64,000 nt of DNA from Neocallimastix lanati (nom. inval.) (lineage: Eukaryota > Neocallimastigomycota > Neocallimastigomycetes > Neocallimastigales > Neocallimastigaceae): NCBI GenBank assembly GCA_016946835.1, contig JACVTC010000066.1, positions 643,501 to 707,500 on the forward strand, given 5' to 3'. The notes below the pieces were generated by a model. It ran no database searches. It saw nothing but the letters and a program-made list of their open reading frames with translations, and had not been told where the DNA came from. Numbering within the stretch: position 1 is the stretch's first letter; each line of letters opens with the position of its first letter. Both the position numbers and the translations under genes were made by a program. Below are positions 5,211 to 32,689 of this stretch, in pieces.

Positions 5211-5946
5211 TGATATAAAACAAATATGTGTAGCAACATATTTGTATATTTAATAATAATTATTAAATATTAAATTTATATCTCTTTTGTCAATAATAAT
5301 ATTTGAAATAATTTTATTATTCATATATTATTCAATATTTATATATATATTATTCATTATAATATGAAATATATTAAATATATTAAATTAAATAGTTAAT
5401 TTCTTCTAAATATATATAAGAATATTATTATATATATAATTTAACTATTCATATTTATTTTTAAAGTTTATATTAAAAAGACATAATACTTCTATATATT
5501 ATAATATATAATATAATGAAATAGTTTTAGTTATTTTAATTATAATTAAATATATATAGTTGATATTATTTATTATATTCATATTTATTATATAATTATG
5601 AATATAATAAATATGAAAATTTTTAATTATGAAAAATTTTATTATATATTTAACTTTATTATTCTTATATTCATTTTAAGAATTATATAGTTATATTTAT
5701 TATATTTTTTTAATATATATTTATTATATATTATACTATACTCCGATATAATATATTTTAAATGTATATTTATTATTATTAATAATTAAATTATTAAAAG
5801 ATTCCTAATAACTACTCTTCTTTATTTGTAGTTTAGAGAAGACCCTTGGTTAATAGGGTTTTATAAATTAAAAAAATATTAATAAAGGTTAATTAAATAT
5901 AACGATACTATTAAAAATTAGTAGCACATAGAAGTCCCGCATATCA
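5211..5946. repeat. Solo LTR-like insertion X-a inside the copia A RT region
   Basis: 736-bp non-coding insert with TG...CA ends and inverted termini TGATAT...ATATCA. Its left end carries a subterminal palindrome (ACAAATATGT, 6-nt loop, ACATATTTGT). Flanks are AGCA on the left and ACCA on the right, a 4-bp target duplication with one mismatch. The other end (GTCCCGCATATCA) lies exactly 10 bp from CACGTG at 5957-5962. Related copies are at 8408, 23871/30852, 30879 and 32309. The TG...CA ends favour an LTR over a MITE. Confidence 0.85.
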
Positions 5947-6435
5947 ACCAATCAAACACGTGACTTTATTATTGAAAATTTTGAAGAACATACAAGGTTC
6001 AGACTTTAATTGTTTAAATCCATTGTTAGTAATAAAATTAGTGATTGTTTTGTACCATTGCCTTCCTGACTGGCGTAAGCCGTATAATGCTTTGTTTAAC
6101 TTCCAAAAACCTTTACCATAATTTGGATCACCTTGCGGAATTGATGTATAAATTACTTTGTCTAAAACAGCATTTAAATATGCTGACTTTATGTCTAACT
6201 GAAACATATTCCAATGTAGTTTTGCAGCTATAGAGATTATTAGCTTTAAACTGTCTGAATTTAATGTTGGTGAATATGTTAAATCGAAGTCTGTACCGTA
6301 TTTTTGTGTAAATCCACGGGCGACTAAGCGAGCTTTGTATTTTGAAATGTTATTATTTTTATCTCTTTTTGTGGCAAATACCCATTTTGTAGTAATAACT
6401 GATTTGTTATTAGGTATATGTCTTACAAAAGTCAT
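5947..6435 (-). pseudogene. Copia A proximal reverse transcriptase
   Basis: Minus-strand fingers/palm part of copia RT: WVFATKRD, KARLVARGFTQKYGTDF, YSPTLNSDSLKLI, QLDIKSAYLNAVLDKVIY and WKLNKALYGLRQSGRQWY. These are the standard RVT_2 blocks in order. The CACGTG hexamer at 5957-5962 lies within this coding sequence, which shows that it belonged to the target before X-a arrived. Fossil. Confidence 0.9.
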
Positions 6436-6458
6436 TGTTTTATTTCTATATAAATTAT

Positions 6459-7106
6459 TTAATTCTTCTTTGATGGCTTCAATCCATTTTTCTTTATTTT
6501 TACATGTGATAGCTTGATTAAAACATTAAAACTTAATGGGTTGTCGAGTTCGATAGATTGAATAGATAAATTAATGTCCCGCTTTTTGCTTGATTCTTTA
6601 ATTAATGGACTACCATGGCGTTTCATTAAAATTTGTGGAGTTGGTACATTTATATCACGTGCCTTTTTGTTATTCATGTTATTATCTATGTCTAATGTTC
6701 TTTTATTTGATTTATGATTGTTTAGATTATTAGTGTGCGTATTTGAATTGTTCAAAGTTGTAGAATCATCGGAATTGTTATAGTGTTGTATATCTGATGA
6801 TAATTTGTTGTTTAATTGATCGTTATTATTACTATTTTCATCAATGTTATTTGGTTCATTTTATGGCGCATCCTTATTATTAATATCGTGATTCAAATTG
6901 TTTTGATTATTTATTTTGTCTTTTAAATCATCATTATTTTCAAATAATGAATGATCAATGTTATTATTATAATTTAATGATAGAGTGTTTTTATTGTTAT
7001 TGTTATTGTATTTGTGTAATTCGTAATTAAAAATATAATTTGCTGGTATATCTTCTTGGAATATAGCTTCCCTAACTAAATGAATACTTTGATCCTTAAA
7101 ATCCAT
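6459..7106 (-). pseudogene. Copia A Asn-rich linker between integrase and RT
   Basis: Low-complexity minus-strand coding dominated by Asn, Asp, Lys and Leu (NNSNTHTNNLNNHKSNKRT, NNNNNKNTLSLNYNNNIDHS). It occupies the place where copia polyproteins have a variable region between the integrase C-terminus and RT. Comparable linkers occur in B and C. It probably encodes a disordered segment. No domain is seen. Fossil. Confidence 0.75.
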
Positions 7107-7138
7107 TGCTATGTTGCTATTTGAATCAAAGTTAATTC

Positions 7139-8206
7139 CTAAAATATACCTTGTTTGGTGTTTGGTTCAAATCTAGAGTTTTTATTCATAGTATTATTGT
7201 AGTGCATAACACAACCAAAAACTTTAACTTTATCTAGATTAACTTTTCTGTTATAAAATATTTCATTCGGAATCAGATTAGAAATATTTTCATGTGGCGT
7301 TATATTGTACAAAAAGTTAGAATATATAACAGCAAAAGACCAAAAATCGAGGCTTAGCTTAGCCCAATGTATTAATGTTTTGGTTGCATTTTGTAATGTT
7401 TGATTATACCTTTCTGCAATACCGTTGTTTTGTGGATTATATGGAGTAGAAAATATCTTTTTAATACCCATCTTTCTGCAGAATTTCTTGATACGAGAAT
7501 TATTGTATTCTCTTCCATTGTCAGATTTAAAATATTTAATTTTATTTTCAAAGTGATTATTGATGTATTTAATAAAATTAATAATTATATTTACTGCCTC
7601 CGATTTTTCTTTCATAAGATATACCCAAGATTTTCGACTAAATTCATCAATGAAGGTAATAATGTATTTGAAGTTATCTTGAGATACCGGATTAATAGGC
7701 CCCATAATGTCTGAATGTATCGTTTCGAGAACCTTTTGAACCTTTGGAGGAGTCTTATTGTGTGGCTTTGATTTAAGTTCGGATATGGCGCATTCCAAAC
7801 AGTTATTAGTTTTGATGTTGTGTAATTCAAGGTATTTTGAAATATCCCTTTGATAAAAGTGACCGAGTCTTTGATGCCAAAGCATTAATGATTGATTATT
7901 TAATTCTGTAGAGTTTATATCAGGTTTGTAATATTGAGTAGAAGGGATAACAAAAGTATTTGTATTGTTTGTGGCGAATTCTCCAATTGTATAATTATTT
8001 TTAAAAATTTTTAGATAGATATTGTCATTTTTATATAATATAGTGGCGTTATAACCATCCTTAGCAAGTTTGACACCACCTATAAGATTTTTGTTTATAT
8101 CTTTGGAGTAAAATACTTTTTCTAGTATAATTTTGTGGCCGTTGATTATGACATTAAATCTTCCAAATCCTTCAAATGTGCATGTAGATTTATTTGCACA
8201 CTTCAT
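7139..8206 (-). pseudogene. Copia A integrase
   Basis: Long minus-strand stretch with the GAG-pre-integrase/zinc part (LMLWHQRLGHFYQRDISKYL, then NNCLECAISELKSK) followed by the rve catalytic core: TIHSDIMGPINPVS, FIDEFSRKSWVYLMK, KYFKSDNGREYNN and TPYNPQNNGIAERYNQTL, carrying the DDE residues. The downstream IPNEIFYNRK and KVFGCVMHY blocks are also copia-typical. Role: joins element DNA to the host chromosome. Fossil, though this part looks well preserved. Confidence 0.92.
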
Positions 8207-8407
8207 AGTAATATTTGTTTTGGTAAAATTTTCCAGAATTGATATATCATTCGTAATATGTTCACTGGGTCCTGTATCGTAAGTCCAAAGTATGGTTCTA
8301 GTAGTATCGTGACCAATATTGTCACGTGAATTGAAAATGTAATTTTCTGATGAAACTTTTGTATTTTGAGTTAGAGAAACAGTATTTTCGTTTAAATCTT
8401 CTGGTTT
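8207..8407 (-). pseudogene. Copia A protease region
   Basis: Minus-strand WTYDTGPSEHITND (about 8245-8290) is the copia aspartic protease active-site block, corresponding to the D-S/T-G-A motif followed by H-M/I-T. It sits just upstream of integrase, as in copia. A CACGTG at 8323-8328 within this stretch carries no X insertion. Fossil. Confidence 0.8.
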
Positions 8408-8972
8408 TGATCTAAAACAAATATGTGTAGTAACATATTTGTATATTTAATAATAATTATTAAATATTAAATTTATATCTTTTGATAATAATTTTTATAA
8501 TATATTATTAATTATTCATTATTATATTATAATTACTATTATAATATATATTAAATTACATATTATTTTATAATATATTATATTATATTATTTATTTTAT
8601 AATTATATATTATTATATTAAAATATAATAATATTTTTATATTTAACTTTAATAGGATTTTTATTATATTATACAATATATTATTATGTATTATTTTATA
8701 TTTATTTTTTCTTTTACATATAATATACATTTATTATTTAAATATAGATATTGTATTCTTATATATATATAATTTATATTATATGTTTAAAATATATTTC
8801 ATACTATTAAATTTTATAATTTTAAAATGTAATTTCTTAATAATAACCAATTTCTAATAAATTAATTTAGAAAGGGGGTTTTTTAGTTTTTAGGAAAAGG
8901 AATAATAAATTAAATAAAGATATAACTATATTATTATAATTAAAATATAGCACATAAAAGTCCCGTATATCA
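8408..8972. repeat. Solo LTR-like insertion X-b inside copia A
   Basis: 565-bp non-coding copy of family X, left end TGATCTAAAACAAATATGTG, right end GTCCCGTATATCA. It is flanked by GTTT on both sides (8404-8407 and 8973-8976), a perfect 4-bp target duplication. The right end is 10 bp from CACGTG at 8983-8988, which lies in copia A coding sequence. Same orientation as X-a. Confidence 0.88.
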
Positions 8973-9465
8973 GTTTATTTATCACGTGATTTTCATATAA
9001 TAAAGAATTATTTAAGATCATGTGATTTGTTTGTTCATTATATTTAGTATCATTATATTCAATACTATCAATGAATTTACCATGCATTGTATTGATTTCT
9101 TCATAGCATGGAGTAAATTCCCTTTCATCTAAACATTCAATATTATTTATAGTATTATTATTTCTTCTTTTACGGTTGTTATTTTTATTTCTTCTTTTGT
9201 TGTTGTTATTGCGGCTTCCTTTATTGTAATTGTTGTTTTTATTGTTAATAATTTTAACTCTTGAGTTATTTTTGTTTGTTCCACATGGATTGAAATAGCA
9301 GTCTTTTGCAAAATGACCTTGGTTACCTCAAATTAAACAAAATTTTGTTTGTTTATCATAATTTCGTACATTAGAAATGTAGTTAATACTGTGGCTTTCA
9401 ATATTATCAATGTCCATTTTGTCTTCGTATACATTGTTCGATGTTTGTCCTAAGTTATTCTTTGA
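8973..9465 (-). pseudogene. Copia A nucleocapsid region
   Basis: Minus-strand coding between gag and protease: a basic Arg/Lys/Asn-rich segment (about 9140-9280) and a zinc-knuckle-type block with GHFAKDC (about 9290-9340). Family role: binding of element RNA. Fossil. Confidence 0.65.
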
Positions 9466-10092
9466 TTATTGAATGCTGATTCTTGAAATATAATTACTTT
9501 TTCTTTCTCGGCGGTAGGATAACATAGTGTATTTGTCCTTGATTTCTGTGTAAAAAGTTCCTACTTCCATAGAAGAACTGAATGTGACCTTGTCTTGTAG
9601 CTCCTTAGGAAGTGCATCATACATAATTGATATTTTTTCCATTTTTGGAAGGTCCATAGAAGATGTTTTGAGAAGCCTAAATAGTTCACAGATTTCATTG
9701 ATTACTTCCATAGTTTCATGGAAGGAATTTGCGTGGATCGTATATAGTTGTTTGATCCACATACCACAAAGGGCCGAATTGTCTATATAATATAGTGTTT
9801 TTAGTTTCTGCATTTTAGCGTACGCATTTGGAGAGTCTTTAATGAAGAATTTTATTCGATCGACCACATTTGCCGTAATATCTGAACATACTTGAGCAAC
9901 TTCAGCAATACAGTCGTCATAAAACTTCCTTTCATTGGCAGTTGATGATTCCGAAATCTTCAATGTGGCTAAGTAATTGGAAGTTACATATTTCGTTAAT
10001 TTCTTTGCTTTAAAGTGGTCATAAATGGCAGCATACCAAATTGGATAATTTTCACTTCCGGTGAGCTTATCGATGGAGAAGTTAGTAGTCAT
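9466..10092 (-). pseudogene. Copia A gag (capsid part)
   Basis: Minus-strand open stretch of 208 codons from an ATG at 10090-10092, 8 bp from the primer site. MTTNFSIDKLTGSENYPIWY is the copia gag N-terminal block in which the element sits next to a conserved Trp. KMQKLKTLYYIDNSALCGMWIKQLYTI and the following LLKTSSMDLPKMEKISIMYDALP match the UBN2-type gag helices. Forms the virus-like particle. Fossil. Confidence 0.88.
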
Positions 10093-10099
10093 TTTGAAA

Positions 10100-10113
10100 T
10101 GAGACTCTTAATC
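10100..10113 (-). promoter_or_regulatory. Primer-binding site of copia A (half tRNA-Lys CUU)
   Basis: Plus strand TGAGACTCTTAATC abuts the 5' LTR. It equals nucleotides 27-40 (anticodon arm, CUU anticodon) of tRNA-Lys as known from animals, so the minus-strand RNA would pair with a tRNA-Lys cut in its anticodon stem. No 3'-CCA-type site is present. Confidence 0.8.
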
Positions 10114-10330
10114 TGTTGTTTATTAAAGATTTTTATTAATAAGTTTTATTTATATAAAATATAAATTGGTAATTACAAAGATTTAACGTAGTAAAATTTA
10201 CATGTATTTATACTAAAATGTGGCTTGTTCTAGATTATTATTAATTAATTACATTATATTAAATATATATTAAAATTATATTATCATTAATCTAGAATTG
10301 TTTTAATATATAAATTCACATATTGTAACA
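10114..10330 (-). repeat. 5' LTR of copia A
   Basis: 217-bp partner of 3923-4139, immediately followed by the ATATG target duplication at 10331-10335. Confidence 0.95.
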
Positions 10331-10335
10331 ATATG

Positions 10336-10502
10336 AATATTATATAATAAAGAATATTACAGTTTAACAAAATATAATAAATAAGATTTATAATAACTAT
10401 TTAATAACTATCTAATAACTAATGTATTCATAATGTGGCTAATTGTGGCCTATTAATATTACAATGTATAATGTATAATTATAATGTAGCTAATACTTAA
10501 CA
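10336..10502 (-). repeat. Part 2 of copia M LTR
   Basis: Continuation of the sequence interrupted by A. It contains a doubled ATGTATAATGTATAAT-like motif and ends in CTTAACA, a plausible LTR terminus. Inferred only from length and position. Confidence 0.35.
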
Positions 10503-11159
10503 TTAACAATATTAATAATAAATCTTATTTTTTTATTTTTATATTAATAATGAAATTTTGTATTAATAATATTTTTATATATTGATAATTAAAATTTATA
10601 TGTTATATTTTTAACTTTTATTATAAAATTTTATATTAAAATGTTTTATTTTATATTGAAAAATATTTTATTTTATTAAAAACCTTTATACTAGAATAGT
10701 ATTTTTATTTTTATTTGAATATTTTAACAGATTGTAATAATGATTATAGCCAATTAAATAAATTCTTATTAGAAATATTTTAGATAGATTATTCTAAAAA
10801 AAAAAAAAAAATCTTTTATTAATATTATAAATGTATTTTATCTATATTATTATAATTAAAATTTTATATAATTGATTATAAAATCAATTTAAATTTTATA
10901 ATAAATGTGATAATTTTGTGGCAAAAACAACTTTTATATCTTGAAAAAAAAAGTATAAATAGTTATAAATTTTGATACTAATTTTTAATAATCATCAATT
11001 AATAAATAAAGAATTAATAAAAAAAATAAAATAAATAAAATAATATCTGTGTATTTATTATTGTTTTCCTATTTAATTTCTCATAACCTTAATAATTTTT
11101 GATAAAGGATGAAATTTAAAATTTAAAATTAATTAATAAACTAAAATTAACAATTTATA
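10503..11159. other. A/T-rich spacer between copia A and copia B
   Basis: No gene seen. Long A/T tracts only, including a run of A at about 10797-10811. Confidence 0.5.
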
Positions 11160-11164
11160 ATAAT

Positions 11165-11379
11165 TTTTATTTTTATTTTTATTTTTTTATTTTTATTTAT
11201 TTAAGTTCTGTTTATTTTAATTATTATATTATTATTTTATTTTATACTAATTACATGTATTAGTTTTTACTACATCAATTGCATAACTTCATCTTAATAT
11301 GTGTTAAGCCACATACATACATAGAGATTTAAATATATATAATATAAATTATTATACTATTTGAACTTTATTTTTAACA
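11165..11379 (-). repeat. 3' LTR of copia B
   Basis: On the minus strand starts TGTTAAAAATAAAGTTC right after the polypurine tract and ends in an (AAAAAT)n-like tract. The terminal A-rich end is unlike the usual CA ending. Confidence 0.92.
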
Positions 11380-11394
11380 CTCCTCCTAAAGTTC
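11380..11394 (-). promoter_or_regulatory. Polypurine tract of copia B
   Basis: Minus strand GAACTTTAGGAGGAG directly before the LTR. Near-identical tracts precede the 3' LTRs of C and of copia I. Confidence 0.8.
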
Positions 11395-11399
11395 AAATG

Positions 11400-12931
11400 T
11401 GACTAACACTTAACCATAATAGAATCTCTAAATTTATTTAATAGATATGTATTAAGATACTTTGTAAAACCATCGGCTAGATTATCTTCAGACTTTATAT
11501 ATTTTATTTTCTTTAATAAGATCTCTTGTGTGGTGATATTTTATGTCTATGTGTCTAGATCTTGGGTTAATAGTTTCATTTTTGCAATTATAAATGGCAG
11601 CTTTATTATCTATATTTATTGTTATACATTTACAATTTAATTTTAATTCATTTAATACATTTTCATACCACAAGCAATGTCTAGCGCATTCGTTTATTCC
11701 ATAATATTCACTTTCGGCAGAAGATACAGATACACAGTGTTGTAATTTTGAATACTATGAGATAGGTCCTGAACCTATTTTAATTATATAACCGTAGTAG
11801 ATTTTCTAGTCTCTACACCTCCTCCGTAATTTGCATCTACATAAACATTTAATTTTAAGTTTCCTGAATATTTTAAACCATAGTTAGGTTTTCCCTTGAG
11901 ATATCTAAATATTTTGATGACATTATACCAATCTTCATAATTTGGATCTTTGGCTTTTCTGGAAGCTTTATTCACAGGAAATAAGATATCCGGTCTAGTA
12001 CATATCGCGAGATATAATAAGCTACCTATAGCTTGTTGGTATTTCGTGATATTGAATTTTCTTTTTCTTAATTCTTCATTTTCTTCTGGTATCATATTTG
12101 AAGATATTTTATACTTATCTACGTTAAGTTTTTTTAATATATTCTCTAAATATTTACGTTGTTGTAATAGATAGCCGTCCTTTTCTTTTATGAATTTAAC
12201 CCCAATGATTGTATCCACGGGACCTATATCAGTTATGTTAAAATAATTTTTTAATAAATGTTTTGTTCTATGTACTTCATATTCATTACCTGTTAATAAT
12301 ATATCATCTACATAAACTGTAAGTAGACAAATAATTTTATTCCGATTATTCATTTTAATATAAATGCATGGTTCACTTCGAAGTCTTTTGAAACCAATAT
12401 TTATAAGTTTTTCATTTAAAGTCTCGTTCCACAAACGACCAGACTGTTTCAAACCGTACAAGGCTTTATTTAGTTTCCAATAGCCATTTTTATAATCTTC
12501 AGCACCTTCTGGAATTTCCATATAAACATCTTCGTTTAGTGTAGAGTTTAGATAGGCTGATTTTATATCAATTTGATATATGTTAAAATTATTGGCTGAT
12601 GCAATAGCAATTGCTATTCTCAAAGAGTATTGTTTTAATATGGGCGAGAACGTCTCATTGTAATCAATACCTTGTTTTTGTGTAAAACCTCTGGCTACCA
12701 GTCTTGCTTTTCTTTTATTTATACTATTGTATTATATTTTTATCTGAACACCCACTTTGGTGTTATTATATTACTACCCTTGGGTACCCTATCAACTTTC
12801 TTATAAACTTTTAAGTTTTTCATACTGTTTAACTCCTCCTTGACTGCTTGTAACCATTTATTTTTATTAATTTTATTGAATATATCATGATAATTATAGG
12901 GTTCACACAGCTCCTCCTTTGTAGATAACAA
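11400..12931 (-). pseudogene. Copia B reverse transcriptase and RNase H
   Basis: Minus-strand RVT_2 blocks: KWVFR near 12740, QIDIKSAYLNSTLNEDVYME, WKLNKALYGLKQSGRLWNETL, CLLTVYVDDILLTGNE (active site YVDD), IGSLLYLAICTRPDILF, then RNase H pieces YVDANYGGGVETRKST, CARHCLWYENVL and NIDNKAAIYNCKNETINPRS with the HIDIKYHHTRDLI block. The order is typical of copia. Fossil with several breaks. Confidence 0.92.
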
Positions 12932-14336
12932 AGAAAAATTATTTTCTATTATATCCTTTAAATTAAATGATTTTATTTTCTTTGATTCTGGTTTTAATTC
13001 AGAATCAAGTTTTCTCTTACCTTTCCGTTTGACGTTTTTGTCCTTTAAATTTAATGACTTTAATTTATTTGATTCAGTTTTGTTTCTGAATCAAGTTTTC
13101 TCTTTCCTTTGCGTTTACTTGTTTTCTTATTATTTGTTTTATATGGGGTTTCTTTATCATTATTAATATTCGATATTGTTGAATTATTTGATTTATTATT
13201 CATATTACTCATCTAATTTATTTAATTCTTTATTTTCATTTGAATTTTCATTTGAATTTTGTCTTTTGTTTATATTCAAATTTAAATTATTGTTCATATT
13301 TAGGTTTAATTCTTTGTTTACATTTGAATTTTATTCTTTGTTTACATTTGAATTTAATTCTTTGTTTATATTTGAATTATTATTTATACGTTGGACATCG
13401 TTCATATTCGACAGACCATCATATAAATTATTAATTCCCATTTTTGTATTAAAATTATTTTTATATAAATTTTTATTTGGAATTTAATTATTATTTACAT
13501 TATTATTAATGGAACTTGAATTTCCATTTATAATGTTATCATTACAATTTGAATTATTTATGAATTGTTCCATTTTATCGATTTTATTATTATTTATGTT
13601 GTTAATTAAATTATATTTACCTTGAGAATTATCTTCTGAATTTTTATTGTTTAAATTTCCTGAATTTGATGAATTTTGAGCATTATTTTCATAATTTATA
13701 ATTTTATTAATATAATCATTATTTAAATTATTATCATTTAAATATAAATGACCCTTTATCCATTTAGAAAATTATTATAATTTTCATTTTGAATATAATT
13801 ATTTTTATTTAAATAATTTAAATTTGGATTTATAAATCCAGCATTGTAATTGTAAATGGCCGGATTTAAGTTTTCTGCAAAAGGTAAATTGCTACTTAAA
13901 TTATTGTTTAAATTATTTAAAGGTAAAGTATTATAATTATTATAATTTTTATATGGGTCAATTATATTGGTTGATTGGGGAAAATTTTTATTTGAATTAG
14001 GACTATAAGTAAAATTAATATTATTATCATTTAAATAATTTTTATTAAAATTATATTTATTAAAATTATTATAATTTGGATAATTATTATTTATATTATT
14101 ATTATTATTTAAACTATTATTATCTAAATTATTATTATTTAAATTATTTAAATTATTATTATTATTTATATTGTTATTATTTGTATTTAAATTATAATTA
14201 ATAATATTATTTTTGTTTTCTTCTCTATTTTCTGTGGCCTCTTTATTTTCATGTTCCTTATTTTTGCTATTATAGTCTTGGAGTAATATTGTACTTTTGT
14301 TATTTTCATCGTATTCTTCCATATTAACCAGTTATA
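12932..14336 (-). pseudogene. Copia B Asn-rich linker
   Basis: About 1.4 kb of minus-strand coding of very low complexity between integrase and RT, for example NNNLNNLNNNNLDNNSLNNN with repeats of Asn-Leu-Asn-Asn and Asn-Tyr-Asn. The reverse strand of the segment 13176-13487 gives a Phe/Leu-rich shadow frame only. It is much longer than the short linker of classical copia. Likely disordered and repeat-driven. Fossil. Confidence 0.8.
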
Positions 14337-15350
14337 TATTTCTGGTCTTGTAGAAGGTGCGGAAATATTACCAGGGATATCTTCGAAGAATTCAACTGTC
14401 CTTGAAAGAACTATTTTATTATTGTGTCATATATTATGTAGGCTGTTGGATTATTATCATCATATCCTAAAAATATTCCAGGAAGGGAGGTTCCGTTGAA
14501 TTTTCGTCTAAATTGCTTTGGGATATAAAAGTAAACTTGGCAACCAAATACTCTAAACTTTTCATAATCGACCTTGATATAATTCCTCGAAGGGCACTTT
14601 GTTGTTTTTACCATTATGTGGTAACCTATTATGAATGTAATTTGCTGTCCTTACAGTATCTTCCCAATATTTATGATTTAGCTTACCATCTTTGAGCATG
14701 GCGGTGGCGTTATAAATGAGGGTTTCTTGTAAACGTTCGGCTCTTCTGTTTTGCTGGGGGTTGTAAGGTATTGAAAATTGTTGTTCAATACCATTTTCTT
14801 CACAAAATTTCCTAAAGTTATTATTTGTAAACACCGTACCGTTGTCGGTTCGTATATATTTAATATTTTTGTTGAAAATGTTGGTTACTTTCTTATACCA
14901 TTTTCTGAAAATATTGAATACTTCGACTTTTGAGTTCATAAAAAAGACCCATCAGTACCTGGTATAATCATCTAATATACTTAAGAAATATTTATTTCCA
15001 TATATGGAGCTATCTAGGGATGACACTGTATCCATATGTATAAGTTCAAACGGCTCTTTTGACTTGTTTCTTGCTTTATTATAAGGTTTATTTCTCATCT
15101 TGGACTCGCATATTACACATTTATTTTGTATGTTTATATTTTATAATTTTTCCTTAATGTTATCTATATAAAAGTGGCCAAGACGGCGGTGCCATAGCTC
15201 CATGTTTTCTATATTAAAAGCTTTTATAATATTGTTACATGTAATAGTTTTTTTGTTGTTGTCCCTATTATATTCTATTTTATTTTTAAAAATCCATAAT
15301 TTATATATTTTGGATTTATTAGATTTGGTAGTAAATATCCTTTTGCCTTC
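14337..15350 (-). pseudogene. Copia B integrase
   Basis: Minus-strand blocks: ELWHRRLGHFYIDNIKE (GAG-pre-integrase, about 15170-15215), a zinc-type CVICESKM segment, then the catalytic core with YIRTDNGTVFTNNNFRKFC, SIPYNPQQNRRAERLQETL, KYWEDTVRTANYIHNRLPH, and the C-terminal KFRVFGCQVYFYIPK and NGTSLPGIFLGYD. Fossil. Confidence 0.9.
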
Positions 15351-15359
15351 TTTGTTGTA

Positions 15360-15670
15360 AATGGTAACTAAATTTCATAATTAAAATTGTAAAATATTGT
15401 TTTATAACCTTCTTCACTTAAGTTGTCAATTGACAACAAACTTTTTTTGAATTTAGGGATATATAATACATTTCGTAATGTAATTTCATTATTGTTAATA
15501 TAGCCTACGTACGTACCTATGTACGTAGCAGTAACTGTACCTCCGTCAGCGAATTGGATTATTTCTTCACACCTTATCTTATCTATTAAACTTGATAATG
15601 CATTTGTCATGTGATAGGTGGCTCCGGAGTCAATTGTCCAACTGACTATATTACTTGGTAGCTTCGCTTT
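15360..15670 (-). pseudogene. Copia B protease
   Basis: Minus-strand WTIDSGATYHMTNALSS is the canonical copia aspartic-protease block (DSGA, then HMT). It is followed by IIQFADGGTVTATYIGTYVG and the hydrophobic LRNVLYIPKFKKSLLSI block. Processes the Gag-Pol polyprotein in family members. Fossil. Confidence 0.9.
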
Positions 15671-15706
15671 AGTTGACGGGGCAGTTACATAGTAACTCTC
15701 GGCACG

Positions 15707-15991: not shown

Positions 15992-16005
15992 TGAGTTAAC
16001 ATTTA

Positions 16006-16755: not shown

Positions 16756-16764
16756 TACTGCTAA

Positions 16765-16778
16765 TGAGACTCTTAATC
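16765..16778 (-). promoter_or_regulatory. Primer-binding site of copia B (half tRNA-Lys CUU)
   Basis: Plus strand TGAGACTCTTAATC directly next to the 5' LTR, identical to the site of copia A although the two LTRs are otherwise unrelated. Confidence 0.8.
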
Positions 16779-19446: not shown

Positions 19447-19465
19447 CTTGGCGAGCTTTACAGGC
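19447..19465 (+). promoter_or_regulatory. Possible primer-binding site of gypsy G
   Basis: TTGGCGAGCTTTACAGGCC, 5 bp after the LTR, begins with TGG as expected for pairing to a tRNA 3' CCA end. I could not assign the tRNA. Confidence 0.4.
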
Positions 19466-22140: not shown

Positions 22141-22680
22141 GCATTGAGGTAAAAAGAATAAGAAATGGAGAATGTGTTTGGACTTTAGGAAATTAAATAT
22201 CGTCACAATAAAAGATGCCTATGCATTACCTATAATCGATGAAATATTATTTTCAATTGGAACTGAGGTTAAAGTGTTCACTACAATCGATTTATTTTCT
22301 GGTTTTCATCAGATTCCAATGTATAAAGACGATATACCTAAAACAAGTTTCACCACTATGTATGGCAATTACCAGTTTCGAGTAATGCCTTTTGGATTAT
22401 ATATTGCTCCGGGAACCTTCCATAGAGAAATGAATAGGATATTTCTACCACTTATTGGAATTTATATGTTTGTTTAAATTGATGATTTAGTTATATTCTC
22501 TCCTTCTATTGAACAACATATAGTAGATCTTAATAAAGTATTCAACATCATTAAAGATAATAGTTTAAAAATTAATTTAAAAAATACAACTTCTTCAAAG
22601 AAAAAGTCAATTTATTAGGTCATACTTTATCAATTAACTGAATTTTTAATGGAATTTCCCCTATACAAGGAAAAATTTAA
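22141..22680 (+). pseudogene. Gypsy G reverse transcriptase part
   Basis: RVT_1 landmarks in order: CLDFRKLNIVTIKDAYALP, FTTIDLFSGFHQIPMYKDD, KTSFTTMYGNYQFRVMPFGL and the IDDLVIFS active-site block near 22480. Fossil part of the gypsy pol. Confidence 0.9.
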
Positions 22681-23094
22681 TAATATATATAAAACTATTT
22701 ATTTATAAACAAAAGATTTTTTAATTAATAGTTTTTATTATTTATTAATTTACTAAAACTAAAATTAATTTTTTTAAACTCTTTATTTTTATTTATTATA
22801 TTAATACTTATAATAATTTTAATTATATATTTAATATTAAAAAACTATTTTTATAAATATTAACTATTTAAGATTATTCCTAAATTAATATTTAACTATT
22901 TAAAACTAAACTAAGTTAACTAAATTAATTAAAAAATATTTTCAATTTAAAAAATAATTAATAAATTTTATTTCAATAAATTTTATATTAATAAAATAAT
23001 TCATATACATTAAATAAATTAAAATTTCATATACATTAAATAAATTAATTGTAAGAAAATTTAAACTATTTAATGTATTAAAGATTTATTAAAT
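22681..23094. other. A/T-rich stretch between the gypsy G RT part and its LTR tail
   Basis: No coding seen. A/T tracts only. Confidence 0.4.
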
Positions 23095-23243
23095 CTTTAC
23101 ATTTAGAGATAAATTTATTAAATTATCTATTTAAATTATTTACATTAGAATAGTTAATATAATATTTATTTTTGTTAAAGGAAAATTAAATTTTAATTAT
23201 TAGAATATATTATTTTTTTTATATAATCTTCAATTTTGTACCA
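23095..23243 (+). repeat. LTR tail related to gypsy G
   Basis: About 149 bp over 95% identical by eye to 19295-19441, ending TTTTGTACCA. Presumably what is left of a 3' LTR. Confidence 0.75.
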
Positions 23244-23870
23244 TAAATTCTTTAAATAATTTAATTAATTATTTATTTTATTTAATTATCAATTTATTAT
23301 TAATTAATTATTGTTGGATTATAATAATATATAATTCAACATATTAACCTAATAACGTTATTAATTATAAAGCTATTTTATATCTTAATTTTAATAATTA
23401 TTGTTAAAGTTTTAAGATAATTTGGTCTTAAACGATTAGTTCAAGATGCCAAATTATAGTAATTAATTAATAATTAAATTTACTCTTATTTAAAATATAT
23501 TGTTATTAGTAAATTTTATAAATAAGTTTTTATTTAAAATATAAATTTTATTTAATCTTAATAATATTTTATTACATTATTATTTTATATAATTATTACT
23601 ATAATTTAAATTGCAATAATCCTACAAAGAGTTAATCAAAAGATTTAAACATGTATTTATATAAAATAATTAATTAATTATTAAAATATTAATTATTAAT
23701 ATGAATATGTAATAGTATTAATATAAGTTTGATATTGATAATATAAAATAAAATAATAATATAAATATTTAATATAAATAAAATATAAGAATCTAATATA
23801 GCTAAATATTATATTTTATAATTAAAATATAATATGTAAAGATTTTGATAATAATATAGAAATTTAATAT
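23244..23870. other. A/T-rich spacer
   Basis: No gene seen. Contains GATAATTTGGTCTTAAACG-type unique sequence near 23410-23460 but no recognisable element. Confidence 0.4.
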
Positions 23871-23968
23871 TGATATAAAACAAATATGTGTAGTAACATA
23901 TTGTATATTTAATAATAATTATTAAATATTAAATTTATATCTTTTTTGATAATTATTTTATTTTATTT

Positions 23969-24928
23969 TGTTAAAAATAAAGTTTATTATAGTTTATTAA
24001 TGTAAAGAGGTGATTATCCCAATCACATTTTAAATTAAAAATTTTTCTTGTGTAATTCAAAAATGTAAATTATTCTTTGATTTATAAAATAATAATCAAA
24101 GTAAATAAATCATATGAACTAAATTTTTGAATTATATTCTTTAAGCCACAAGATAAATTTTTAATGTAATAATTTTTATAAAATTTAATTCTGAGAAAAT
24201 TATTGTTGTAAAATAATTTAAATGAATTAATTAAAGTTTAAAACAAAATAAATTAATAATTTATTTTGTGAAAATTAAGTTTCAAAATTTAATCATGACT
24301 CCTTTAACATTGTTTTTAAATCGAAAATAAATAAAGACTTTACTTATAATATTAAAATAATAAATAGATAATAAATGTACTTAATTTTAATTATTTAGTA
24401 TTTAGTTTAATTAATAATTATTATTTTTCTAAATTTAGCTATAGTTTATAAATTTATTATTTAATAAAATTCATTAGGATAGTTTTATATTAAAATATAT
24501 GTAATTTAAATAAAATAATATATTATCAATGTATTTAGGAAAAGTATAAATAGAAGATACTTTTCACATTTTTTCTCGATGTAATTGTTATTGAATAAAT
24601 AACTATTAATAAATATTAAATATTAATAAAATATATTTTTAATAAAAATTTTTTAATAAAATAAAATTTATTGTATCTTGTTATTGTAATCTATTTTAGT
24701 ATATTCTTTTACAATTAATTATTAAGTTAAAATATATTTAAAATAAATATTGTATATGTTAACTAAATATTTGAGGCTTATATATATTATAATAATGAAC
24801 TAGTACAAAAATATGATTGTATTATGTAAATGTATTGATATAAAAATAATAATATTTATTATAATTGAAAATAAGAACTTAATAAAATAAATAAAAGTGA
24901 TTAATTAAAAACAAAAATAAATTTAAAA
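23969..24928 (+). repeat. 5' LTR of copia C, split by solo LTR Y
   Basis: Pieces 23969-24000 and 24719-24928 together match the 3' LTR 30319-30560. It starts TGTTAAAAATAAAGTTT and ends AAATTTAAAA rather than in CA. Confidence 0.93.
24001..24713. repeat. Solo LTR Y inside the copia C 5' LTR
   Basis: 713 bp with inverted ends TGTAAA...TTTACA (TG...CA) and a perfect ATTAA duplication at 23996-24000 and 24714-24718. Inside: a long imperfect inverted repeat (TCTTGTG, AATTCAAAAAT ... ATTTTTGAATT, CACAAGA; about 24047-24155), a TATA box TATAAATAG at 24545-24553 and AATAAA signals shortly after. This is the layout of an LTR promoter read on the plus strand. No internal region of this family was found in the window. 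Confidence 0.88.
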
Positions 24929-24942
24929 GATTAAGAGTCTCA
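24929..24942 (+). promoter_or_regulatory. Primer-binding site of copia C (half tRNA-Lys CUU)
   Basis: GATTAAGAGTCTCA, directly after the LTR. Same 14-mer as in A, B and D. Confidence 0.8.
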
Positions 24943-25030
24943 TAGACTTATATGTGCAAAATATTTGTAGTGTTGTGAACATAAAAATAAAATAATTTTT
25001 TAAAAATAATAACAAAAACTCAATCTAAAA

Positions 25031-26037
25031 ATGAGCATAACAAACGTAACGTCAACAAAAGTAATGTTGACGAAAGACAATTATAACATTTAGTTACTTG
25101 ACATGGAAATGGTCTTACAAATAAACGGTGTCGTAGAATATATCGATGAAAGATTATTAAAAACAATACAAGAGAACGAAATTCCAGAAAACATAAGAAG
25201 TGACCATATAAAAGTAAGAAATTCTCATATCTTATATTATGAGGAACAGGTTACCAAGGAAATGATTAGAAGGGATGCTACTGCCAAATTTTTGATAAGT
25301 AATAGCATTTCAGAAGAAATGAAAGCTAAAATAGATTTTAGAAGAAATACCGCTTATGATGTCTGGAGAATCATAATGGAAAGGAATAATAAATCTAATG
25401 AAGAAAAAAAAGAATGAACTAAATAATCAACTGGAAACATTGATATATCAAAAGGATTCAGATATATCCATTATTCATTGCCGAATTAGATAGAATTTTT
25501 GCAGAACTGTATGTACTTGGTGAAGTGCTATCTGAAGAAAAAAAATACAATATTTTGTATTCTGCGTTACCTTATGAAACTGTCATAGAAACAAATATTA
25601 TTTCAACCAAGAAAAAATACACTGAAAGTTGTAAACTCTTGAAAACGACAATTCCATATATAAAATATTTAAAGGAAGAATCAAAAAATAAACAAAGAAA
25701 CAAAGCAGCAGTCATTTTAAATACAACTAAAGTAAATAACAGAACTCAACTTAAAAGTAAAGAAAACAACAGAAGCAATAACAAGAATAATAACAATAAA
25801 GAAAATAGGAAATGTTTTATATGTGGGAAGATAGGTCATATAGCAAAGAATTGCTGGCACAATAGAAAGAATAAGAATAATAAAAGTAATAATAGAGCAC
25901 ATGCCAATAATGCTACTAATAAAAAATCAGAAACTTACTGTGAATTTGCAGATTCTATAAATGATCTGAGAGATTATGATACTGATGACGAAGGAGAATC
26001 ATCAAATACTGTGGCACCAAGGCCAAAATACTACTAA
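25031..26037 (+). pseudogene. Copia C gag with zinc knuckle
   Basis: Starts at ATG 25031, about 90 bp after the primer site. Contains the gag pattern LTKDNYN and MEMVLQINGVVEYIDERLL, then MKAKIDFRRNTAYDVWRIIM (cf. IKLDFQRSSAYQIWNIL in B), YNILYSALPYETVIETN, a basic Asn/Lys region and the CCHC knuckle CFICGKIGHIAKNCWHNRKN at about 25812-25870, followed by an acidic CEFADSINDLRDYDTDDEG tail. Fossil. Confidence 0.92.
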
Positions 26038-27292
26038 AGAAAATAAAAAGAATATAAGGAACACCAGTGTAAACAAAGTAACACTTCCAGCGAATATCAA
26101 GAGTAGCTACTATCTATCAAATTTAGCAGAACAGAAGAATATTCCAAAAAGTATAGTTAGTTGGACGATAGTTTCTGGTGCTACATATCATATGACTAAT
26201 AATTCTGATACATTGATTAATAAAAGAAAATGTAATGAAATAATTCAATTCGCTGATGGTGATACAGTTGCTGCTACATACATTGGTTCGTATATAGGAT
26301 ACATTAATAATAACGAAATTAAATTAAAGAATGTATTGTATGTACCAGAATTTAAGAGAAACCTATTATCAATAGATAATTTAAGTGATGAAGGCTACAA
26401 AACCTTATTTTATAGACATAATAACAAAAATCTAGTAACTATATTTGATCCAGGAGGAAAAAGAATAACGACAACAAAATCAAATAGCTCAAGAATATAT
26501 AAAATTTGGACGTTTAAAAATAAAATAAAATGTAATCACAATACAAATAATGCAATAAAATATAATAATATCATAAAGGCTTTTAATGCAGAAAATTTTG
26601 AATTGTGGCACAAACGTTTAGGTCATGCTAACATAGATAACATTAAGGATAAACTAAGTACAATTAAAATAAAAGAAGGCTGTAATATATGTTCGTATAA
26701 AATGAAAAATAAACCATATAAAAAGGTTATTAATAATAGCAAGGAACCTTTCGAACTGATTCATATAGACACGGTATCTTCTCCAGATACTTCTCTTTAT
26801 GGAAACAAATATTTTCTTACAATATTAGATGACTATACACGATATGCATGGGTGTATTTTATGAAAAGCAAAGCTGATACATTTAATACGTTCATAAAGT
26901 GGTACAAAAGAATAAAAAACATCTTTAATTACAATGTTAAACATATCAGAACAGATAATGGAATAGAATTTTGTAATAACCAGTTCGACAAGTTCTATGG
27001 CGAAAATGGTATAGAACATCAAAATAGTATATCTTAAAATCCACAACAAAACGGAAGGGTGGAAAGACTTCAAAGCACACTAATATACAATGCTGGTTCT
27101 ATGTTGAAAGGGGGAAAACTTAATCATAAATACTGGGAAGACGCAGTAAGAACCGCAAACGACATTCTTAATAGGTTACCACATGCAGGTAACAACAATA
27201 AAGTACCCTTTGAAGAATTATATAATAGAAGAGTTGACTATGACAAATTCAGAGTGTTTGGATGTCAGGCATTCTTCTATGTACCCAAGTAA
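25976..27292 (+). pseudogene. Copia C protease and integrase
   Basis: Protease block SWTIVSGATYHMTNNSDT and FADGDTVAATYIGSYIGY (about 26155-26310); GAG-pre-integrase LWHKRLGHANIDNIKDKLST with zinc-type CNICSYKM (about 26600-26710); catalytic core IHIDTVSSPDTSLYGNKYF, ILDDYTRYAWVYFMKSK, HIRTDNGIEFCNNQFD; then NGRVERLQSTLIYNA, YWEDAVRTANDILNRLPH and KFRVFGCQAFFYVPK. Standard copia order. Fossil. Confidence 0.92.
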
Positions 27293-28740
27293 TTCAGAAA
27301 AAAATCAATGGAACATCACTTCCAGGTATATTCCTTGGATATGACGAAACAAATCCAACTGCATATATAATTTATAATACTACTAATAATAAGATAGTTT
27401 TAGCAAGAACTGTAGAATTTTTTGAAGATGTTCTAGGTAATGCTTCAGCCCCTCTTTCTACACCAGAAATGTTTTATTTTAATAGAGTTATGGATGAAGA
27501 AGAAGAACAAATGAAATTAAACAGTGATTATAATAAAGAAGAAGAAAATGAAGAAAACATAGGTAACACAGAAAATAATAAATTAAATAATAATTTGGAT
27601 AACACAAAAATTAATGAATCAACAAGTGTAAAGAAAGAAATTAATAATGAAATTAATTATAATATGGATCAAAATAAATTTTTGAATCAACCAACCAATA
27701 CAATTAATCCATATAATATTTTATATCCAAATAATTTAAATTACAAAATTTATAATTACCCAAGTGACTATTTACCTTTTATAAATAATTTAAATTACCC
27801 ATTTCAAAATTTTCAAAATCCAAATTTAAATTACATAAATAAAAATAATTACATTCAAAATGAAAATTATAATAATTTCTTAAACGAACATAATGGTCAA
27901 TTTTACTACGGTAATTATGAAAATAATAATTTAAATAATATTAATTATAATAATTTAAATAATTTAAACAATTATAAAAATGTTCAATTTGATAATTTAA
28001 ATCGACCATATCAAGTAAGTAAAAATGATTTAAATTATAATAATTTAAAAAATAATAATTTAAATAATAACACTACAAACATTGACAATGGTGAAAAAAA
28101 ACATTAACGTTAATGTAAATAATCAAAGTAATAATTTAAATTCAAATTTAAATTCAAATTTAAAAATTTTAAATGAAAAAAGTATAAACAAAAATAAAAT
28201 TTAAATAATAACCAAGATAATTTAAACAATTTAAACAAATTAAATCAAAACAATTCAAATAATGTAAACATCAGAAATGAAAATATAAATAATAATTATA
28301 ATAATTTAAATAATTTAAATTTAAATAAAAACGAAAATAAAATAATTGGAAATAATAATAACAATATTAATAATAATGTAAACAATGTAAATAATAAAAT
28401 TAATATCAATAACAATAAGAGAAATATTGAATTTAATGTAAATTCAAACCAACAAAGTATAATTAACAAAAGAAATGTTGAATTAAATAAAAGTCCAAAT
28501 GAACAAATTGAAAGAACGGAATTAAATTCAAATAAACAAAACACAAATAATACGAATGTAAATGAAACAAATTATATAAACATAAATAATAAAAAATATA
28601 AAATCATAAAAATAAAAATATAAAGAATCAGATGAACAAAATAATAACAATTATAATAATAAAAAAATAAAATCTTTCAATATAAACGATATATTAAACG
28701 ATAATTACACATTATCTACCAATAAAAATAACAATGTATA
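27293..28740 (+). pseudogene. Copia C integrase C-terminus and Asn-rich linker
   Basis: Starts with NGTSLPGIFLGYDETNPTAY, then becomes Asn-rich for about 1.2 kb (NNLNYNNLKNNNLNNNTTN and variants), with the motif PNLNYINKNNYIQNENYNN shared almost exactly with the linker of B. Longer than in classical copia. Probably a disordered, repeat-expanding segment. Fossil. Confidence 0.8.
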
Positions 28741-30290
28741 TTCGCTATTATCAGTGAATGAGAAATTATGTGAACCATATAATTATAAAGATATATACAC
28801 TAAAGTTAATAAAAAGGAATGGTTCAAAGCAGTAAAGGACGAATTAGACAGTATGAAAGATTTAAATGTATACGAAGTGGTAAGTAAAGTACCAAAAATT
28901 ATAATATTGTAACTCCTAAGTGGGTTTTTAGATATAAATACAATCCAGACAACTCCATAAATAAAAGAAAGGCCAGATTAGTGGCTAGAGGTTTCACCCA
29001 AAAACAAGGTGTGGATTACAACAATACTTATTCGCCTACTTTAAAGTATGATTCCTTAAGGACAATCACGGCATTAGCAGTGATAAATGGATTCAACATC
29101 TACCAAATTGATATAAAATCAGCTTACTTAAATGCTGAATTAGATGAAGAAGTGTATATGGAGATAGTGCTGAGTATCATAAAAAAGGCTACTGGAAACT
29201 CAAAAAGGCCCTCTACGGACTCAAACAGTCTGGACGTTCATGGAACAATACCCTTGATAAGAAATTAAAAGAAATAGGATTTCATCGTTTAATAAGTGAG
29301 CCATGTATCTATATCAAGAAAAATAACCAAAATAAATTAACATGTATTTTAACCGTTTATGTTGATGACATATTACTAACAAGTAATGAACATGAAATAA
29401 ACAATACTAAAAATTTGTTAAAGAAATATTTCAACATTACAGATATCGGAAATGTAAATACTATTATAGGTATTAAATTTGAAAAAGAGAAGGACGGTTA
29501 TTTATTACAACAAAAGAGGTATGTTGAAAATATACTTGATAAATATAATATAAATAAATATAAGATATCATCAAACATGATACCAGAGGAAAATGAAAAG
29601 TTGAGAGAGAAAAAATTTAACATCACAAGATATCAGCAACTATAGGGTCACTTTTATACCTTGGACTCTGTACCAGACCCGACATTATGTTTTCCGTAAA
29701 CAAGGCATCACGTAAGTCAAAGGATCCTACTTATGAATACTGGTTAAACATAATAAAGATATTTAGGTACTTGAAAGGAAAGCCAAACTATGGCTTAAGA
29801 TATAGAAAAGATGCAAAAATGAACTTAAGAGCTTATGTCGATTCTGACTTCGGAGGAGATAAGGAGACCAGGAGGTCAACTAAAGGTTACGTAATTTTGT
29901 TTGATTCTACCCCTACAACATGGTATTCGAAGTTGCAAAAGTCTGTAGCAGTATCCACAGTTGAAAGTGAATATTATGCTATTGATGAATGAATGCGCAA
30001 GACACTGTCTATGGTATGAAAATATACTAAAAGAATTAAATTTAAAGCAAAATTATATTATTGTTAATGTTGATAACAAAGCTGCTATATACAATTGCGA
30101 AAACGAAACTATAAATCCTAAATCAAGGAATATAGACATAAAATATCACCATATAAGAGAATTAGTTAAGGAAAATAGAATCAAATTAAAGTATGTTAAG
30201 TCCATGGATAATTTAGCTGACGGTTTTACGAAGTACTTAAATACAAACCTAATGAATAAATTCAGGGAATCTATATTAGAGAAATTCTAA
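28741..30290 (+). pseudogene. Copia C reverse transcriptase and RNase H
   Basis: RVT_2 blocks: VNEKLCEPYNYKDIY, FKAVKDELDSMKDLNVYEVV, ARGFTQKQGVDYNNTYSPTL, FNIYQIDIKSAYLNAELDEE, CILTVYVDDILLTSNEHEI, IGIKFEKEKDGYLLQQKRY, CTRPDIMFSVNKASRK, then RNase H: YVDSDFGGDKETRRST, TWYSKLQKSVAVSTVESEY, ARHCLWYENIL, NVDNKAAIYNCENETINPKS and NLADGFTKYL. Fossil with several breaks. Confidence 0.93.
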
Positions 30291-30303
30291 ATAAACCAGA
30301 ACT

Positions 30304-30318
30304 AAACTTTAGGTGGAG
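30304..30318 (+). promoter_or_regulatory. Polypurine tract of copia C
   Basis: AAACTTTAGGTGGAG immediately before the 3' LTR. Confidence 0.8.
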
Positions 30319-30560
30319 TGTTAAAAATAAAGTTTATTATAGTTTATTAATTATTAAGTTAAAATATATTTAAAATAAATATTGTATATGTTAACTAAAT
30401 ATTTGAGGCTTATATATATTATAATAATGAGCTAGTACAAAAATATGATTGTATTATGTAAATGTATTGATATAAAAATAATAATATTTTTTATAATTGA
30501 AAATAAGAACTTAATAAAATAAATAAAAGTGATTAATTAAAAACAAAAATAAATTTAAAA
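30319..30560 (+). repeat. 3' LTR of copia C
   Basis: 242 bp, uninterrupted partner of the split 5' LTR, followed by the TATTT duplication. Confidence 0.95.
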
Positions 30561-30862
30561 TATTTTATTTCAATATGTATTATTATAATTATAATAATAA
30601 TAATACTTTATTTCATATAAAATTTATATAGTTCTATATATTAGAATATATAATTAATATATTACCTACTTCTTATAAATAGATTAAATTATTTATATTA
30701 GAAATAGAGGACTCTCTTGTAAAATTTTAGGAATTAAAATTATTATTTTAATTGTACAAATATTATAATTTTATTAATAAAACTTACTAAATAATCATTA
30801 TTTTAAAAACCCACTGCTTATTAATTATTACACATAAAAGTCCCATATATCAATATGACAAT

Positions 30863-30868
30863 CACGTG
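30863..30868. promoter_or_regulatory. CACGTG flanked symmetrically by X1 and X2
   Basis: Palindromic hexamer with X1 ending 10 bp to its left and X2 starting 10 bp to its right. Both X copies point the same terminus at it. CACGTG is the E-box bound by bHLH factors of the Cbf1/Pho4/USF type. That such a factor guides integration is inference. Confidence 0.7.
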
Positions 30869-30878
30869 TTTACATTAT

Positions 30879-31559
30879 TGATATGTGGGACTTTTATGTA
30901 CTACTAATTTTTAATAGTATCGTTATATTTAATTAACCTTTATTAATATATTTTAATTTATAAAACCCAATTAACAAAGGGTCTTCTCTAAATTACATAA
31001 AGAAGAGTAGTTATTAGCAAATATTTATAATTTAACAAATATTAATAATAATAAATATACATTTAAAATATATTATATCGGAGTATAGTAAAATATATAA
31101 TAAATATATTAAAAATAATAAATATAATAAATATTAACTATATAATTCTTAAAAATGAAAATAAGAATAAAGTTAAATATATAAGAATATAATTATAAAT
31201 ATAAATATAATAAATAATATCAACTGTATATATATTTAATTATAATTAAAATAACTAAAACTATTTCATTATATTATAATATATAGAAGTATTATGTATT
31301 TTTAATATAAACTTTAAAATAAATGAGAATATTTAAGTTATATATATAATAATATTCTTATTATATATATTTAGAAGAAATTAACTATTTAATTTAATAT
31401 ATTTCATATTATAATGAATAATATATATATAAATATTGAATAATATATGAATAAGAAATTATTTCAAATATTATTATTGACAAAAGAGATATATATTTAA
31501 TATTTAATAATTATTTTTAAAAATAAAAATATGTTGCTACACATATTTGTTTTATATCA
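30879..31559. repeat. Solo LTR-like X2
   Basis: 681 bp, begins TGATATGTGGGACTTTTATG and ends TTTTATATCA, with a perfect TTAT duplication at 30875-30878 and 31560-31563. Orientation is opposite to X1. It is long-form like X-a. The hairpin-bearing end (ACATATTTGT) is on the right. Confidence 0.9.
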
Positions 31560-32308
31560 TTATTTAATTTATATTAATTTCAATATGTTTATAATATTTA
31601 GTCAATTAGTTGGCCTAGACTATTTCCTAAATATTTTAATAAAGTTAATTTAATAATAATTATTATATACTACTATTTATTAATTTATTAATATTTAAAT
31701 TTAAATAACTGAATTATTGAAATTGAAATTGAATTGAAATTCAATTATTATCTTAACAATTATAAAATCATTAGATTTAAATTTGATTTATGACATTAAT
31801 TTATGTTTGAATAATAAAAACTATTTTATATTAATTAAGGTTTGAATATTTCATTTATATCGTGTATTAATCTAGTTTTTTATTGTATTTATATTAAAAT
31901 TAATTTATATATTTTTATTATTTAGTTTAATAATTAATGAAAGAAAATTAATATTTATACTTTAATATAGGAAAAACTTTATTATAGTAAATAATTATAA
32001 AAGAGAAAAATACTAGAAATAATTTAGTTCTCTATCCAAGAATAATAAATACTAGATTACAGTAATTCTTGAGATCAAAGTATAAATATAAATATTAGTT
32101 TTAGGAATAAATGTTAGGTTTCATTTTAAATGATGATATGAAGTTGTAATTCTTCTAAATGAATAAAATTTAAATAAAATAATTTTTCATAAAACACATT
32201 AATTGTTTCCCCCATTTAAAAGAACAAACCTTAAAAGAACCGAACCTGAATTTCGTACTTTATCAGTATATAAAACATAATATAAATAATTACACGTGAT
32301 GTCATATG
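31560..32308. other. Spacer with an interspersed repeat
   Basis: No gene. The part 31745-31860 is over 85% identical by eye, in inverse orientation, to 54455-54560 (shared ATTAGATTTAAATTTGATTT and ATTAATTAAGGTTTGAATAT), so it is a piece of a dispersed repeat. The remainder is A/T-rich with slightly mixed sequence at 32020-32270. Confidence 0.5.
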
Positions 32309-32689
32309 TGATATGAAGGACTTTTATGTGTAATAATTTATAAGCAATGGGTTTTAAATAATGATAGTTTAGTAAATTTTATTAATAAAATTATAATATT
32401 CGTACAATTAAAATAATAATTCTAATTCCTAAAATTTACAAGAGAGTCATCTATTTCTAATATAAATAATTTAATTTATAAGAAATAGGTAATATATTAA
32501 TTATATATTCTAATATATAGAACTATATTAATTTTATATGAATTAAAGTATTATAATTATTATAATTATAATAATACATATTGAAATAAAATAAAATAAA
32601 AAAATTATTATCAAAAAGATATAAATTTAATATTGAAAAATTATTATTAAATATACAAATATGTTACTACACATATTTATTTTATATCA
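32309..32689. repeat. Solo LTR-like X3
   Basis: 381 bp, short form of family X, begins TGATATGAAGGACTTTTATG and ends ATTTTATATCA. CACGTG at 32293-32298 lies 10 bp outside its left end. Flanks TATG and ATTG do not give a clean 4-bp duplication, so they have drifted or the copy is rearranged. Internal sequence matches the right piece of X1 closely. Confidence 0.82.

Follow-up and report, generated by a model that had tools for sequence, protein, structure and literature searches.

A recurrent LTR beside CACGTG hexamers

The 64,000-bp stretch analyzed here (hereafter the window; Neocallimastix lanati, assembly GCA_016946835.1, contig JACVTC010000066.1, positions 643,501 to 707,500 of the forward strand) holds five copies of a long terminal repeat (LTR), here termed X, two of them in a copia-type retrotransposon, copia A, and all presenting their U5 end to a CACGTG hexamer, or E-box (Table 1). 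The gap from the terminal ...ATATCA of X to CACGTG is exactly 10 bp for each of the five ends, which are carried by four hexamers, and X1 to X4 are bordered by 4-bp target duplications; the insertion layout reads U5 end, duplication, 6 bp, E-box. CACGTG occurs six times in the window (at 6656 and 8323 in addition to the sites in Table 1) versus 0.86 times expected from shuffles, none of 100 of which reaches six. The positions of the X copies, their spacing and duplications and the rarity of the hexamer had been reported in an earlier sequence-only reading and were found to be correct when the window was re-read; its further statement that the first two hexamers lie inside copia A coding sequence holds for X1, which splits the RVT_2 domain, whereas the X2 site can only be placed between the integrase and gag open reading frames (ORFs) of that same element.

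X5 has no matching duplication at its ends, and comparison with two other loci (L030 and L058) did not restore one, while X3 is split in two by an inserted copia-type element. No X copy lies beside the hexamers at 6656 and 8323, both in the copia A region. At the left edge of the window, a minus-strand ORF (411-1019) matches the Ty3 capsid family just below the cut-off (E 2.1e-6), and a further Ty3/gypsy element may lie there.

Table 1. Copies of X, their target duplications and the adjoining E-boxes, in window coordinates
Feature	Position	Strand	Remarks
X1 solo LTR (TGATAT...ATATCA)	5211..5946	+	736 bp; interrupts copia A RVT_2 reverse-transcriptase domain
X1 target duplication	5947..5950		right copy ACCA; left copy AGCA at 5207-5210
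E-box CACGTG	5957..5962		10 bp off X1 U5 end; kept in three uninterrupted copia A copies
X2 solo LTR	8408..8972	+	565 bp; GTTT duplications at 8404-8407 and 8973-8976
E-box CACGTG	8983..8988		10 bp off X2 U5 end; kept in copia A copies without X2 (L106, L107)
X3 LTR, U3 part	23871..23968	+	right limit set by eye at start of copia-type LTR
X3 LTR, U5 part	30561..30852	+	left limit approximate (alignment to X5)
X3 target duplications	23867-23870 and 30853-30856		ATAT, both copies
E-box CACGTG	30863..30868		common to X3 on its left and X4 on its right, with 10 bp to either U5 end; uninterrupted copy L069
X4 solo LTR	30879..31559	-	681 bp; TTAT duplications at 30875-30878 and 31560-31563
E-box CACGTG	32293..32298		10 bp off X5 U5 end; target repeat without X5 in L030, L058
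X5 solo LTR	32309..32689	-	381 bp; no matching duplication

Exact spacing and polarity across the genome

In the genome from which the window derives (199,045,447 bases, 199 Mb), the U5 end pattern matches 871 places when up to one mismatch is allowed (reversed control, 0) and the exact 15-base pattern has 706 (reversed control, 1), of which 172 carry CACGTG 0-30 bp downstream (reversed control, 0), as opposed to about 0.6 expected by chance from 706 ends, 31 offsets and the genomic frequency of the hexamer. Together with the shuffles of the window, this leads us to reject a chance association. Nor are the distances scattered, an outcome that the sequence-only reading had named as refuting its proposal: among 100 listed of the 172 CACGTG-bearing ends the gap is exactly 10 bp in 85, with the remainder at 11 bp (four), 22 bp (five) and 9, 13, 20, 21, 23 and 30 bp (one each), and three of the five 22-bp cases (C25, C59, C97) hold another U5 tail, ending 10 bp before the hexamer. 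Genome-wide, CACGTG is 2.4 times commoner than the reversed palindrome GTGCAC (5501 versus 2291 occurrences). The X end pattern had no match in either of two further collections, viral_contigs and genome_contigs.

The association is confined almost entirely to one end of the element. The exact U3 end pattern has 680 genomic matches, and in only six of them does CACGTG lie within 30 bp (gaps of 24, 24, 20, 10, 16 and 23 bp), as against 172 for the 706 U5 ends; in two of these six, which are copies of copia A, the X2 hexamer falls near a different X, and none of 75 sampled U3 flanks has CACGTG or CAYRTG at 10 bp. As read from these sequences, the polarity is strong, with one possible exception at 10 bp.

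X belongs to a Ty3/gypsy-type retrotransposon

A 7.3-kb copy elsewhere in the genome (L072) features a pair of identical 384-bp LTRs along with TCCA duplications and a single long open ORF encoding Gag-Pol, with Pfam matches to RVT_1 (997-1157), RNase H (1220-1350), the integrase zinc-binding domain (1487-1535) and rve (1557-1647), the last at 31.0 bits and thus just short of its 32.6 cut-off; the match to the integrase C-terminal domain is weak, and the ORF ends shortly past it. The order reverse transcriptase (RT), RNase H, integrase is that of Ty3/gypsy elements, as is the combination of TG...CA LTR ends, a short duplication and a stretch resembling a primer binding site (PBS), TGGTGGAGATATCGGGGA, which recurs after 5' LTRs and is read as a putative PBS. 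The best solved-structure match of the integrase is that of Ty3 (7q5b, E 1.8e-28); its nearest named relative, 65% identical, carries an Orpinomyces label (Orpsp1_1, a tag that JGI uses for an anaerobic gut fungus), and sources labelled jgi and ena include a protein with 100% identity. Taken with the low G+C, this makes an anaerobic gut fungus the likely host of the element.

Among 42 solo LTRs, a count that omits 3' LTRs with element-internal sequence before them as well as the outer ends of doubly matched pairs, the 4-bp duplication is perfect in 30 and agrees in three of four bases in seven more, with 1.6 perfect ones expected between unrelated flanks, and none of the 42 has a perfect 5-bp duplication. 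Its sequence features identify X as the LTR of a Ty3/gypsy-type retrotransposon with 4-bp duplications; a DNA transposon was considered and rejected in view of the LTR pairs, the PBS-like stretch and Gag-Pol. Pfam finds no chromodomain in the X ORF at E up to 1, such as would place it among the chromoviruses, and no HLH domain or other tether domain known to it, and we therefore reject a tether encoded by the element itself.

The genome also contains short X elements (L040, L046, L049, L057, L063), whose internal part of 2.1-2.5 kb lies between X-type LTRs with the PBS-like stretch, and in which we saw no long ORF for RT or integrase. By eye, a Gag-like ORF spans 541 aa in L049 and 505 aa in L063, and L040, L046 and L057 have ORFs of 373-474 aa resembling the X protease region without its DGGS motif; L049 and L063, with identical LTRs, seem recently mobile, presumably in trans.

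The hexamer precedes the insertion and can be used again

Copies of the target repeats that lack the respective X provide a direct view of the sites before insertion. At the X1 site the hexamer is kept in all three close uninterrupted copia A copies fetched, where ATCAAA-CACGTG follows a 4-bp site reading ACCA in two and GCCA in one; since two of the three read ACCA, this was probably the original X1 target, with the left copy AGCA having changed. In three distant copies of copia (71-72% identical), CATTTG takes the place of the hexamer. Both copia A copies without X2 read GTTT-ATTTAT-CACGTG, and the joined flanks of X3 and X4 agree with L069 at 35 of 35 bases, spanning ATAT-GACAAT-CACGTG-TTTACA-TTAT, with each duplication present once; a query with both TTAT copies leaves a 4-base gap in this alignment, which is what one TTAT would give. 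Copies of the X5 target repeat without X5 are present in L030 and L058, where the right side can be compared and each locus has another X across the same hexamer. At the sites checked, hexamer and 10-bp spacer were present before insertion (on one side only for X5), which rules out the hexamer as part of the element and agrees with the earlier reading that it is target DNA.

A single hexamer can moreover be flanked by two X ends, each at 10 bp, as in X3/X4 of the window and in L010 and L046; further such pairs appear in the listed matches (C116, C127, C214 and C235, of which C214 and C235 look like copies of one place). These shared E-boxes indicate that insertion leaves the E-box usable. In L023, two X copies lie head to tail with ATAT after each and with CACGTG 10 bp from the inner copy, and L106 has another X beside a CATGTG that is also present in the copia A of the window, its TATT duplication lying 6 bp from CATGTG; the U5 end of this copy is atypical, and the spacing was taken by eye from the duplication.

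X has repeatedly hit two families of dispersed repeats, ATATGACAATCACGTGTTTACATTAT and AAATAAAATACACGTGACGTCAAATG, from both sides of their E-box (window 30853-30878 and 32289-32308; L023, L032, L069 and L085; L022, L030, L058, L084, L090 and L091). Another X in copia A (L114/L115; C52) lies six bases from the X1 site in reverse orientation, with GTAG duplications and GATATG, one base from CATATG, as its +10 word despite a CACGTG nearby.

The target is a class of E-boxes

To gauge the strictness of the target word, flanks not chosen by the hexamer were assembled from 99 of 100 listed places of the U5 pattern with at most one mismatch (without C35:187423), the window and a few other loci. Removal of 13 duplicate contexts left 106 distinct U5 ends, of which 19 5' LTRs, followed by internal sequence, and five ends running straight into another X were set aside; of the remaining 82, which border genomic DNA, five near-identical flanks were collapsed to yield 77 distinct ones. 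At +10 of these 77, CACGTG stands exactly in 25, with one mismatch in 20, with two in 14 and with three or more in 18, while the expectation from offsets 20-38 in these flanks is 0.16 for zero, 0.53 for one and 1.0 for two mismatches. The exact word is found at +10 in 23 of 77 flanks outside the window, or 28 of 82 once the window's five are added.

In this sample, then, the exact word is missing at +10 from 52 of the 77 flanks, a majority that the sequence-only reading had set as grounds for abandoning guided integration; yet CAYRTG stands there in 45, as does a word within one mismatch of CACGTG (45/77), and 59 are within two mismatches, from which we conclude that the target, as defined by these flanks, is an E-box class and not a single word. 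The claim that X always sits by CACGTG accordingly applies within the window (five of five) and gives way, across the genome, to a preference for E-boxes at an exact distance. Information content in a first set of 62 flanks is focused on +8 to +16, in a wider motif, RTCAYRTGA, with C in 55 and A in 57 of the 62 in the near half and T in 50 and G in 46 in the far half; the same 62 flanks show no conservation at +4 to +7.

Proposed docking on a host bHLH protein and its alternatives

Taken together, the exact spacing, the polarity, the pre-existing hexamer and the 4-bp stagger establish, at the level of sequence, that integration of X is guided, as had been proposed. We suggest that the integration complex would pick its sites by docking beside E-boxes (RTCAYRTGA, best CACGTG), on which a host basic helix-loop-helix (bHLH) dimer of the MITF/TFE, USF or Cbf1 type would hold the integrase. 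The centre of the duplication lies 11 bp from that of the E-box, about one helical turn, so that the two would share one face of the DNA; the U5-bearing half of the complex would touch the tether, hence the polarity, and, as the hexamer at the sites checked precedes the insertion and survives it, the same E-box can be used again from either side.

The genome encodes candidate partners. Among its 13 HLH profile matches, seven loci have, in one exon, a basic region of the form H-N-A-x-E-R-x-x-R (the other six did not match the scan), which we take to denote the CACGTG-reading class of bHLH proteins, and its His-Glu-Arg residues are those of class B. When one of these H-E-R proteins was compared with solved structures, the best match was MITF (E 1e-11), followed by USF2 and TFEB, then SREBP, with weaker matches to Pho4, Tye7 and Cbf1; RTCAYRTGA, for its part, presumably corresponds to the sites bound by MITF/TFE and Cbf1. 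With the motif and these domains both pointing to a bHLH tether, we consider it likely that the integrase docks, in fixed polarity, on a host E-box-binding protein of this kind, as the sequence-only reading had proposed for a bHLH-type factor. That a MITF/TFE- or Cbf1-type bHLH protein serves as a dedicated docking partner, through a contact specific to the U5-bound half, is a narrower proposal for which we see the arguments as evenly balanced.

Several observations weigh against docking on an E-box-bound protein, or limit how far it can be taken. About a quarter of the flanks (18/77) are at least three bases away from CACGTG at +10, and three young elements with identical LTRs stand at CACGCC, CAGCTG and CATTAT, which implies that such weaker words are themselves accepted as targets and that decay after insertion cannot explain all deviations. 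One U3 end does have CACGTG at 10 bp, and the excess of conservation in the near over the far half-site (16 vs. 7) is not significant (p 0.09). It is also important to note that the empty sites are paralogous repeat copies from the same genome and not orthologous sites from other strains.

Among the alternatives, a tether other than bHLH, such as a basic leucine zipper (bZIP) protein reading the ACGT core, is unlikely but fares best. Some target repeats read TGACGTCACGTG, which overlaps what we take to be a CRE-like word, and the three recent insertions keep the near TCA while two of them have lost the far TG; against this, CATGTG, CACATG and CATATG are frequent at +10, all without an ACGT core, and +4 to +7, the place of a bZIP partner half, is not conserved. 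Slightly less probable still is that the X integrase reads the E-box by itself with no host protein, even though a sequence-reading surface on the U5-bound integrase would simply account for both exact spacing and polarity. Integrase preferences are usually centred on the cut, whereas the palindrome lies to one side of it; degeneracy of the CAYRTG type is typical of bHLH dimers and suits them as readers; and Pfam reveals just the usual zinc-binding domain, catalytic core and weak C-terminal match, with the protein ending soon after.

The two remaining explanations appear to us highly improbable. That hexamer and spacer move with X, or were co-amplified with it as a composite, would suit the frequent recurrence of some 10-bp spacers among the listed matches (e.g., CATTTGACGT and ATATGACAAT), by which the 172 include repeats of a few target families; the flanks, however, mostly differ (77 distinct of 82 sampled), X copies that share a target have unlike end sequences, and the hexamer-bearing uninterrupted targets contradict this origin for the five window copies (on one side only for X5). 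Random integration with survival only beside E-boxes, for example where harm is least, has room among older copies in a static sequence, but selection is not expected to act on single-base spacing or on the facing end, and the three identical-LTR copies, whose hexamers have two to four mismatches, still have CA at +10.

Relation to other targeted retrotransposons

To our knowledge, few LTR retrotransposons choose their sites via a host protein with base precision. Ty3 integration is directed by TFIIIB and is both protein-guided and base-precise; X resembles it in the latter two respects under the docking proposed here, and in having its best solved integrase match there. Ty3 of Saccharomyces cerevisiae inserts upstream of type III genes (PMC5371812), whereas the targets of X examined here are E-box neighbourhoods within a copia element and within dispersed repeats. 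The closest parallel is Tf1 of Schizosaccharomyces pombe, likewise a gypsy-like LTR element whose insertions keep fixed base distances to a motif recognised by a DNA-binding protein of the host: it inserts at -9 and +19 from the Sap1 motif (PMC5741268), and whether a Sap1 site serves it depends on the orientation of the fork barrier (PMC5371812). X shares with it the fixed insertion-to-motif distance, with a presumed binding protein, and differs in having an E-box in place of a 21-bp Sap1 motif, one distance instead of two unequal ones and, with rare exceptions, a fixed LTR end facing the motif, where in Tf1 competence is tied to fork-barrier orientation. Such fixed end-polarity is not described for Tf1 in the portions considered of PMC5741268 and PMC5371812. 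Tos17 and other plant LTR elements with a palindromic target preference also favour certain sequences around the duplication, but the Tos17 palindrome is symmetric about it (PMC6911290) and that of X lies on one side, nearly always U5. A literature search, with subscription papers mostly outside its scope, found no report of E-box-, bHLH- or Cbf1-guided LTR integration, and a search on LTR elements of anaerobic fungi found no such targeting report.

If the proposed docking is true, bHLH proteins would constitute a new class of host partner for LTR retrotransposon targeting, probably in an early-diverging fungal lineage, and each E-box would be a reusable landing pad, approached with the same end first and one helical turn away. 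Scores of insertions of the same geometry in one genome would make docking of an integrase on a well-studied transcription factor fold directly testable.

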